Assembly (NCBI GenBank): GCA_031273805.1
Contig: JAISRE010000047.1
Span: forward strand, 1-34,328
Origin: Synergistaceae bacterium
GTDB taxonomy: Bacteria > Synergistota > Synergistia > Synergistales > Synergistaceae
Direction: 5' to 3'
DNA: 34,328 nucleotides
The notes under the pieces are model-generated. The model worked only from the letters and a program-made list of their open reading frames with translations, did no database searches and was not told the origin of the DNA. The position numbers and the translations under genes are program-made. Each line of letters opens with the position of its first letter. The first letter of the stretch is position 1. Positions 29,269 through 32,652 of this stretch are shown here, piece after piece.

Positions 29269-29770
<502 letters not shown>

Positions 29771-29884
29771 TTGAAAACTAAAGTCAAAAAACTTTATCCG
29801 CCTGGGTGCGGATGTTCCTTATATCCCAGCCCTAAAGTTCGGGGTTTTACGGAACGCCGGATAACAGCTGTCAAGCTGATATAA
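29771..29884 (+). CDS. Possible 37-residue ORF of unknown meaning
   Basis: A TTG at 29771 nine bases after GGAGG opens MKTKVKKLYPPGCGCSLYPS..., ending at TAA 29882-29884 within the promoter of the next small locus. The ribosome site is good but the peptide resembles no family I know. The DNA (CCCTAAAGTTCGGGGTTTTACGG) has a hairpin-rich look reminiscent of IS200/IS605 ends, so it may be a transposon scar rather than a gene. Confidence 0.25.
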   Translation: MKTKVKKLYPPGCGCSLYPSPKVRGFTERRITAVKLI

Positions 29885-29885
29885 T
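29877..29885 (+). promoter_or_regulatory. Extended -10 promoter of small-peptide locus 1
   Basis: TGATATAAT is a TGN-TATAAT extended -10 element. No good -35 is present, as is common for this promoter class. The mRNA would start near 29892 and have a leader of about 73 bases. In that leader CCCC, CCC and GGG, GGGG segments (29930-29956) can pair and cover the SD. Confidence 0.6.
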
Positions 29886-29964
29886 CAACCAGCGAGGCCC
29901 CAGCGCAACATCAGGGGCGCGGGAGGTTGCCCCGTCAATACCCGTAAGGGAGGGGGTGATGCGA

Positions 29965-30054
29965 ATGCCCGAAGGACTAGACAAAAAGAACCGCCCAGTT
30001 ATGACCTGGGCGGAACTCATGTGGAGAATCCTAAAAGCTATTCTGCAGTGGTAG
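29965..30054 (+). CDS. Candidate type I toxin-like peptide, locus 1 (29 residues)
   Basis: A 29-residue peptide, MPEGLDKKNRPVMTWAELMW then RILKAILQW: a polar N terminus with KK, then an amphipathic or hydrophobic, tryptophan-rich helix. GGGAGGGGG plus TGATGCGA precede the ATG. Inside the coding sequence (29982-30013) lies a perfect intrinsic terminator for the opposite strand. This is typical of toxins silenced by a cis-antisense RNA (type I systems such as Fst, TxpA, Ldr). A second locus with the same layout occurs at 31682-31825. Function is inferred from architecture only; no homologue is recognised. Confidence 0.55.
   Translation: MPEGLDKKNRPVMTWAELMWRILKAILQW
29982..30013 (-). terminator. 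Antisense terminator inside small-peptide locus 1
   Basis: On the minus strand CCGCCCAG-gtcataa-CTGGGCGG (8-bp GC-rich stem) is followed by TTCTTTTTGT. It lies wholly within the 29-codon ORF and points against it. Confidence 0.8.
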
Positions 30055-30064
30055 CCGCTAAAAC
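29982..30064 (-). ncRNA. Inferred antisense RNA of locus 1
   Basis: Inferred from the minus-strand terminator and a possible promoter downstream of the ORF (TTGAGT at 30096-30101, CATTAT at 30071-30076, spacer 19). An RNA of about 80 bases would be complementary to most of the peptide's coding sequence. The promoter is weak, so the 5' end is uncertain. Confidence 0.4.
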
Positions 30065-30077
30065 AGCAGGATAATGG

Positions 30078-30254
30078 CGTTTGGTTGAGCTACCGACTCA
30101 ACCGAACGTAAACCCGGCAGGGGCCTCGCATTTTTTCCCGACGCCGGGACTTGCCCGGCGCTCCCCGCAGGTCAAGGGAAAGGCTCTAAGAGCCTCCGCA
30201 CAGTAGGCAAAGGCTACGGAGCAGTGGAGATTTTTGGTGGTTCGTCTCCGTGCT
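30078..30254 (+). other. Hairpin-rich segment, candidate structured RNA
   Basis: At least five stem-loops follow one another: CGTTTGGTTGAG/CTCAACCGAACG (about 30078-30108), CGCCGGG/CCCGGCG (30142-30160), AGGCTCT/AGAGCCT (30181-30195), CTCCG/CGGAG (30194-30221) and AGCA+GGAGA/TCTCC+TGCT (30220-30254). There is no ORF. It could be the 3' UTR of the peptide mRNA or an independent RNA, for example a transposon-linked one. Confidence 0.45.
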
Positions 30255-30301
30255 GGCCCTACATTAAGCTAATTATACCACAACAGAGAGGGTAGGTAGC
30301 C

Positions 30302-30652
30302 ATGCTGATCACGAAAGAATTTTTAGACAAGGTGGGGCGAAACTCCCCAATAGCAAGGGCGGCGATGGTGCAAGCCGGAGACAAAGGTCGAATCAGGGCT
30401 CTTATGAAATTCCTTATTTCCGTTGGCTCCTGCGAGATCACTTTAGCCGAGGCAAGGGCTTTGGGCTTGCCAATCCAAGAGAAAAAATATTGCTTCATGT
30501 CAGACAGCATAACATATGTCCTGCTTGATGGTAGCACGTTCGAGCGTTACAAACCTTTGACAAACGCCGTTGATTTGCAGGTGGCCCATATCCGCAACGG
30601 CATCATTGGCATTCGGAGAGGGGACGAAGAATCATCTGATAGCGTCAAGTGA
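30302..30652 (+). CDS. Hypothetical protein, 116 residues
   Basis: MLITKEFLDKVGRNSPIARAAMVQAG... The frame has a reasonable SD (GAGAGGGTAGG) before the ATG, ordinary amino-acid composition and a mixed alpha/beta appearance, with IRALMKFLISVGSCEITLAEARALGLP as a likely helical core and a C-terminal acidic tail. No membrane segment, signal or catalytic motif is visible and I do not recognise a family. It lies between the structured segment and a convergent histidine phosphatase gene in the accessory region. Confidence 0.6.
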   Translation: MLITKEFLDKVGRNSPIARAAMVQAGDKGRIRALMKFLISVGSCEITLAEARALGLPIQEKKYCFMSDSITYVLLDGSTFERYKPLTNAVDLQVAHIRNGIIGIRRGDEESSDSVK

Positions 30653-31674: not shown

Positions 31675-31792
31675 GAGCAAGTTATTTGATCACACCCGCA
31701 ATCTTGAGTATCAGCTCAAGAAAGTGGAGGATCAAAGTCAGTAGAGGGGCAAGGTCAATCACCCAGTCGAGGGGGCCTTGCTCCTCTTTTTT
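31675..31792 (+). ncRNA. Inferred antisense RNA of locus 2
   Basis: Bounded by the extended -10 promoter at 31660-31668 and the intrinsic terminator at 31744-31792, giving an RNA of about 118 bases. It would be complementary to about the last three quarters of the 47-codon peptide mRNA on the minus strand. No ORF with a ribosome site lies in it. This fits a type I antitoxin RNA. Confidence 0.6.
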
Positions 31793-31825
31793 GTTGCTCG
31801 GGAGGTTGTCTCCGTCTTGCGACAT
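31682..31825 (-). CDS. Candidate type I toxin-like peptide, locus 2 (47 residues)
   Basis: A 47-residue peptide: polar start MSQDGDNLPSNKKEEQGPLD, then a hydrophobic helix VIDLAPLLTLILHFLELI with LKIAGVIK at the end, so a likely single-span membrane peptide. GGGGGAGG and TGATTCG precede the ATG; CCTC just upstream can pair with GAGG and hide the SD. A plus-strand terminator lies inside the ORF. A minus-strand promoter (TTGTGC 31922-31927, 17 bases, TAGAAT 31899-31904) gives a leader of about 67 bases. The layout matches locus 1. Membrane-toxin function is an inference from these features. Confidence 0.65.
   Translation of the reverse strand: MSQDGDNLPSNKKEEQGPLDWVIDLAPLLTLILHFLELILKIAGVIK
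31744..31792 (+). terminator. Antisense terminator inside small-peptide locus 2
   Basis: GAGGGGCAAGG pairs with CCTTGCTCCTC (11 bp, one mismatch) around a 21-base loop and is followed directly by T6. It lies wholly inside the 47-codon ORF on the opposite strand. Confidence 0.85.
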
Positions 31826-32003: not shown

Positions 32004-32261
32004 ATGGTATCTCTGCCAGAATTGGTGAATTGCCCGGAGTGCGGTATACAGCCGGAATTGACAAGGACGAAGAAAGACGAGACACGCGCGAGATCGTCAT
32101 ACCTGTATTTATACGTTTGTCCGAAATGCGGGCGTCAAGCGCGATGGGAGGCCAGCACAAAAAAAATGCAGTTAATGAATGGAACTATGGAAACTATAGA
32201 GAAAAAGAAAAGGTTGATAACAGGAAAAAAAGGAAGTAAAAGAAGTCATGACACAAGATAA
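32004..32261 (+). CDS. Small zinc-ribbon protein, unknown function
   Basis: An 85-residue protein with two CxxC pairs, NCPECGIQPEL (about 8-18) and YVCPKCGRQARW (about 38-49), expected to hold one zinc ion; the C-terminal third is rich in Lys and Arg. The ATG at 32004 is nine bases after AGGGAG (the ORF track uses a TTG two codons earlier). It overlaps the next gene by 14 bases, so the two are probably co-translated. Such ribbon proteins are common in phage and mobile elements; nucleic-acid binding is likely but unproven. Confidence 0.7.
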   Translation: MVSLPELVNCPECGIQPELTRTKKDETRARSSYLYLYVCPKCGRQARWEASTKKMQLMNGTMETIEKKKRLITGKKGSKRSHDTR

Positions 32262-32652
32262 ACCCAAGGCGGCAAAAGCTAGTGCGACGAAGGCGAGGGC
32301 TGAAGCAGAGGCGAAGGCGAGGGCTGAAGCAGAGGCAAAGGCAAGGGCTGAAGCAGAGGCAAGGACGGCAAAGGCGAGGGCGGCAAAGGCAGAACAGAAG
32401 GCAGTGGCTAAGAAAAACGCTGCTCGGTCTTCGAGAACGTTGACTCAGGAAATCTCGAACCCTGAAAACGTGAAGGAGCTGCGTGAAGCCCTAGGGAAAT
32501 TCTACACCGTTGAGGATGTCAGCGCGGCTTTGGAAGTTACAACCCGAACAGTATTTTCATACATTCGAAGTGGGCGAATCAAGGCCGTGAAAGTGGCAGG
32601 CACGTGGCGGGTAAGCGTTGAAAATCTTCGCCGCTTCATGAACGGTGAATGA
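32248..32652 (+). CDS. Helix-turn-helix (excisionase/MerR-like) protein with an Ala/Lys/Glu repeat arm
   Basis: A 134-residue protein. Residues 1-60 are a low-complexity helix of repeated KARAEAEA units encoded by a 24-base tandem repeat (about 32287-32370). Residues 85-131 are a winged helix-turn-helix of the excisionase (HTH_17) type: FYTVEDVSAALEVTTRTVFSYIRSGRIKAVKVAGTWRVS. Such domains bind DNA in excisionases and small regulators. The repeat arm is unusual and may vary in length. It overlaps the upstream zinc-ribbon gene. A hairpin TTGCCGG/CCGGCAA follows about 20 bases after the stop. Confidence 0.78.
   Translation: MTQDKPKAAKASATKARAEAEAKARAEAEAKARAEAEARTAKARAAKAEQKAVAKKNAARSSRTLTQEISNPENVKELREALGKFYTVEDVSAALEVTTRTVFSYIRSGRIKAVKVAGTWRVSVENLRRFMNGE

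Follow-up and report, generated by a model that had tools for sequence, protein, structure and literature searches.

Comparison of sequences from related genomes indicates that the locus beginning at position 29877 of the window (the whole 34,328-nucleotide stretch of Synergistaceae DNA analyzed here) is probably a chromosomal type I toxin-antitoxin-like module, and that it belongs to a conserved, multicopy family that is apparently undescribed. An earlier note on this DNA had proposed a locus of this type between 29877 and 30101, a reading that the comparative evidence strongly supports. The extent given was too short, as the element reaches the 3' arm of an end-pairing helix at 30120 to 30129 and likely an antisense promoter at 30280 to 30272; the pairing between the two mRNA ends and the dispersed family were absent from that note and were found here.

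In the proposed mechanism, an mRNA of approximately 245 nt transcribed from an extended -10 promoter would encode a short cationic amphipathic peptide. An anti-Shine-Dalgarno sequence (GCCCC) in the leader would pair with the Shine-Dalgarno (SD) sequence, keeping the mRNA translationally quiet, and a helix joining both mRNA ends would add to this silencing. A convergent antisense RNA would start beyond the 3' end of the mRNA, be complementary to the 3' untranslated region (UTR) and the 3' half of the open reading frame (ORF), and end at a terminator within the ORF. Duplex formation with the mRNA would then presumably trigger decay by RNase III, as the excerpted text of PMC5848175 describes for bsrG/SR4 and yonT/SR6 of Bacillus subtilis.

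Anatomy of the mRNA and its peptide

The sense promoter, TGATATAAT (29877 to 29885, plus strand), matches TGnTATAAT exactly. Three such matches exist in the 34-kb window when both strands are searched, the others being the antisense promoter of a second locus (locus 2, see below) and a minus-strand site at 30280 to 30272. Homologs carry TATAAT at the same place, with the TGnTATAAT form present in most of the first seven. From this promoter, the mRNA would start at approximately 29891, and the plus strand then carries the 5' arm of the end-pairing helix, GCGAGGCCCC (29892 to 29901), a switch of conserved leader elements (29914 to 29933) made up of GGGGC (29914 to 29918) and the anti-SD GCCCC (29929 to 29933), the SD sequence GGGAGGGGG (29948 to 29956), and a 29-codon ORF, MPEGLDKKNRPVMTWAELMWRILKAILQW (29965 to 30054), encoding a putative membrane toxin. 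The promoter, SD, and ORF, together with the minus-strand terminator described below, were all present as claimed in the earlier note. Downstream lie a covarying hairpin in the 3' UTR, CGTTTGGTTGAG/CTCAACCGAACG (30078 to 30108), the 3' arm GGGGCCTCGC (30120 to 30129), and a run of six T's (30131 to 30136) that is the probable 3' end of the mRNA. No canonical sense terminator hairpin was identified at the locus, and a search of the locus against Rfam gave no match at the gathering threshold, the best being ftsZ-DE at an E value of 5.

The 250-nt window mRNA folds with a z score of -4.47 relative to shuffles and is closed by a perfect 10-bp helix between 29892 to 29901 and 30120 to 30129, an inverted repeat that was recovered independently by a second search. 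In a hand-made alignment of the end-pairing arms across copies, standard pairs occupied 188 of 204 cells and compensatory pair types were present at 7 of the 12 pairs; a copy's own ends paired at 92%, versus 81% for ends swapped between copies. Of 14 copies, 12 had an end helix with a predicted probability of at least 0.9. A good end helix was missing in three copies (G157a, G147, and G155a), and in G155a the -10 and arm were not clearly found. The 3' hairpin displayed changes on both sides in 7 of 10 pairs, with 96% of cells paired and covariation as high in none of 500 shuffles. The alignment behind these figures had been fitted to the model and includes a few matches on the reverse strand, so that it leans towards structure.

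Within the leader, the anti-SD can pair either with GGGGC or with the SD. GCCCC is kept in most leaders and a G-rich competitor in all, and the GGGGG core of the SD lies 7 to 10 nt upstream of the start codon in nearly all copies checked. This core was on average approximately 80% paired in silico (14 copies), with weaker pairing in G157a, G157b, and G157c. The ability of the leader to hide the SD, as suggested earlier for the window, was confirmed in silico and is conserved across copies, and the folding model predicts a translationally inert transcript. Loss of the 3' arm was considered as a way to open the SD and is unsupported: unlike the aapA model (PMC6733600), the thermodynamic model keeps the SD paired when the 3' arm is removed.

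Judged by its sequence and hydrophobic moment, the peptide is predicted to form a cationic amphipathic helix, and it is presumed to be a membrane-seeking toxin. Homologs in other genomes are 28 to 40 amino acids in length, with a first half rich in Lys and Arg, a hydrophobic, amphipathic second half rich in Trp and Leu that reads W..AL.LKL..L.R, and a C terminus that is often basic. At a net charge of +2, the window peptide is less basic than its relatives, as nearly all other main-subfamily copies in family f1 carry +9 to +15. The peptide has no match in Pfam, NCBIfam, PHROGs, or PADLOC, and its profile retrieved nothing at an E value of ≤10 from all PDB chains. In G154 and G150 (L110, 203 to 531, and L111, 221 to 595), a related RNA scaffold carries a different peptide (MARKKSLQMALWIALLALLLGAATRFLEALVDLIRIVL), a third subfamily that also has an antisense terminator within the ORF.

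Distribution of the family

An nhmmer profile built from the other copies (leave-one-out) finds the window locus at an E value of 2.7e-24, and a profile trained on copies from other genera alone finds it at 5e-25. Using the 29-residue peptide as a tblastn query across the phylum, we identified one clear relative, L003, which shares the leader and the hairpin inside the ORF, along with a probably degraded one (L002); hits L004 to L006 were rejected as chance matches. A search of 185 genomes with the leader pattern returned six further copies, L003 again among them. All six have a TATAAT a short way upstream and encode a short peptide rich in Lys, and their ends are complementary wherever the contig extends far enough. 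The leader pattern alone proves little, since some chance hits also came from running it in reverse. With models of the 3' region (R1) and the leader (R2), the family grew to about 25 to 30 copies. These lie in approximately 13 genomes that belong, like the window, to one Synergistaceae family and in two genomes (G099 and G103) that belong to a different family, with six R1 matches in G099 and five each in G153 and G157. Most copies come from fragmented metagenome-assembled genomes, and the isolate names read as those of termite or cockroach gut bacteria.

In a GTDB scan, the matches with an upstream TATAAT were all in Synergistaceae records; pattern matches in viral contigs and non-Synergistaceae genomes were without TATAAT or arms and were taken as chance. 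No copies were found in phages and plasmids searched by DNA. The window genome holds a single copy. No neighboring gene is shared among copies, which argues against an attenuator of one gene. Decay is frequent, as L105, L106, L101, L049, and L065 are truncated or frameshifted, and L053 (G141:C62, approximately 1490 to 1585) appears to be a deletion derivative that retains the promoter, the 5' arm, part of the leader, and the 3' arm and is without an ORF.

Several other features were observed around the window locus. A TTGC tandem run of approximately 13 units (29470 to 29523) is a possible slippage tract. Adjoining the locus is an ORF of 116 amino acids (30302 to 30652, plus strand) that has no match in Pfam, NCBIfam, PHROG, or PADLOC. 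Further downstream, a gene at 32248 to 32652 (plus strand) encodes an HTH_17/excisionase-like protein with an Ala-Lys-Glu repeat at its N terminus; it is preceded by a zinc-ribbon ORF, and the pair may be the remnant of a mobile element. Locus 2 (31685 to 31825, minus strand) represents a separate family of hydrophobic peptides of 47 amino acids, unrelated to the family described here. At least 20 copies of the locus 2 family were found, in 14 of 52 family genomes; all copies tested have an antisense terminator within the ORF, and many have an antisense promoter resembling TTGACG...TACAAT.

The antisense terminator and promoter

The predicted intrinsic terminator within the window ORF is read from the minus strand (30013 to 29982) and consists of an 8-bp stem (30013 to 29991) followed by a U-tract to 29982, with a folding energy of -19.8 kcal/mol. 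None of 200 synonymous recodings of the ORF gave an antisense terminator as strong as the native one. The loss of this hairpin in relatives had been named in advance as grounds for abandoning the idea; a strong in-ORF antisense terminator was present in 21 of 21 copies tested (-12 to -22 kcal/mol), and the native terminator was matched by 0 to 13 of 200 recodings depending on the copy. As the stem sequences differ widely between distant copies, the terminator is kept as a structure under coding constraint.

The antisense promoter is also conserved in position. The 3' boundary could be read in 18 other scaffold copies, and in all 18 an antisense -10 follows the 3' arm at a distance of exactly 2 bp, reading TATAAT, TAGAAT, or TATAAA (mostly TATAAT, and mostly extended); the third-subfamily copies G150b and G154b, where the scan is uninformative, were excluded. 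In the window copy, this position reads AAAAAT and is without a -10. The family's 3' boundary motif recurs, with one mismatch, approximately 140 bp beyond the canonical position as GCTAATTATACCACAA (30268 to 30283), the only match to that motif in the window at three or fewer mismatches. Within it, on the minus strand, lies an extended -10, TGGTATAAT (30280 to 30272), which is the probable antisense (antitoxin) promoter. An insertion probably displaced the promoter by approximately 140 bp. The segment between the 3' arm and this promoter (30130 to 30269) is absent from homologs, and no relatives of it were found in the Synergistaceae family; the one exception, a match of 28 nt within an unrelated coding sequence, was set aside as probably due to chance.

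In most homologs, the predicted antisense RNA is approximately 140 nt and spans the 3' UTR and usually about 73 to 96 nt of the ORF. Because the segment displaces the promoter, that of the window copy should be approximately 280 nt. The antisense RNA of about 80 nt proposed previously is probably wrong for this copy, as probably is the weak internal promoter from which it would start (CATTAT, 30076 to 30071), which scored low in a scan of the window and is not the conserved antisense promoter. Taken at face value, the signals are those of a cis antisense RNA that has its own promoter and terminator and is complementary to the mRNA. A role for the 5' arm of the antisense RNA as a free toehold was unsupported (21 to 48% unpaired).

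The displaced promoter raises the possibility, which we consider real but less likely than not, that the window copy is a decaying relic within a genuine type I toxin-antitoxin family. The copy may be decaying since its peptide charge is only +2, the canonical position has no antisense -10, and it is the sole copy in its genome, in a family in which decayed copies are common. However, it retains an intact ORF, SD switch, and in-ORF terminator, its 10-bp end helix is perfect, neither of its extended -10 boxes is damaged, and a search of the minus strand from the displaced promoter to the ORF found no terminator.

Alternative readings and known systems

For the family as a whole, the peptide could serve as a small membrane regulator under antisense control, or as an antimicrobial directed at competitors, rather than as a self-toxin, the family itself being real. 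Cationic amphipathic helices, as indicated here by the hydrophobic moment, are typical of antimicrobial peptides; however, no neighboring gene for export or immunity is shared, and tight antisense control combined with a hidden SD is what type I toxins typically show (PMC6733600), making a nontoxin role rather unlikely. Considerably less probable is a MITE-like dispersed inverted-repeat element with inward promoters at its ends and an incidental ORF. Such an element would account for the inverted ends, the TATAAT at both ends, the multiple copies, and the deletion derivative and truncated copies. A simple MITE is argued against because the end sequences vary yet stay complementary, unlike ends recognized by a transposase; in addition, the peptide is conserved and the in-ORF terminator is kept despite divergent sequence, with synonymous constraint largely shown. 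Short ORFs and hairpins are common and the leader pattern alone also matches unrelated genomes, but a chance arrangement is refuted by the leave-one-out homology (E value of 2.7e-24), the covariation, and the synonymous-recoding tests.

The type I toxin-antitoxin-like reading is best placed, in terms of mechanism, between the end pairing of aapA/IsoA and the 3'-overlapping antisense RNA of bsrG/SR4. With aapA/IsoA of Helicobacter and other Campylobacterota (PMC6733600, PMC8309996, PMC10537873), the Synergistaceae family shares a cationic amphipathic peptide of about 30 amino acids, an SD-masking leader, a predicted cis antisense RNA, long-distance pairing between the mRNA ends, and multicopy chromosomal loci. 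However, Pfam, NCBIfam, and PDB-chain profile searches detected no sequence homology, the Synergistaceae peptides resembling AapA1 (sequence from PMC10537873) in size and layout only, and the Synergistaceae antisense RNA would cover the 3' UTR and the 3' half of the ORF and terminate within the ORF. The B. subtilis systems bsrG/SR4, bsrE/SR5, txpA/RatA, and yonT/SR6 likewise have a convergent antisense RNA over the 3' part of a small membrane-toxin mRNA, with RNase III-dependent decay and, for yonT/SR6, extended -10 promoters (excerpted text of PMC5848175). No relation to the toxins of the bsrG/SR4 group was found in Pfam and NCBIfam searches, and covarying end-pairing arms that abut both promoters are not described for the Bacillus systems in the same excerpts. 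As in hok/Sok, a stable mRNA would be closed by end pairing and controlled by an antisense RNA; unlike in hok/Sok, there is no overlapping leader ORF (mok), the toxins differ, and a Sok-type antisense RNA acts at the leader. The putative cis-overlapping msoT1/msoA1 system of Microcystis (PMC12390103) also lies outside the classical phyla but involves a different peptide (calculated at 8.8 kDa with its tag) in a different phylum.

The known range of type I toxin-antitoxin systems has been given as Proteobacteria, Firmicutes, and Tenericutes only, plus one putative cyanobacterial case (PMC12390103, 2025). In an incomplete literature collection, no paper was found linking them with Synergistetes, or linking toxin-antitoxin and antisense RNA with Synergistaceae. 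If the reading is correct, the family would represent the first such system in the phylum Synergistota. We lean slightly towards the view that Synergistaceae have at least two unrelated short-peptide families that follow one plan, with an antisense-RNA terminator inside the toxin gene, and that in the family described here the two convergent transcripts share nearly all of their first ~12 nt, each promoter being directly flanked by an end-pairing arm. The layout, in which the arms form both the closing helix of the mRNA and the two transcript starts, would be a new one for control, and the requirement that a terminator function within a toxin ORF makes coding and termination signals overlap in an unusual way. 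With about 20 natural variants of one RNA architecture, the family would test whether AapA-like pairing of mRNA ends arose independently.
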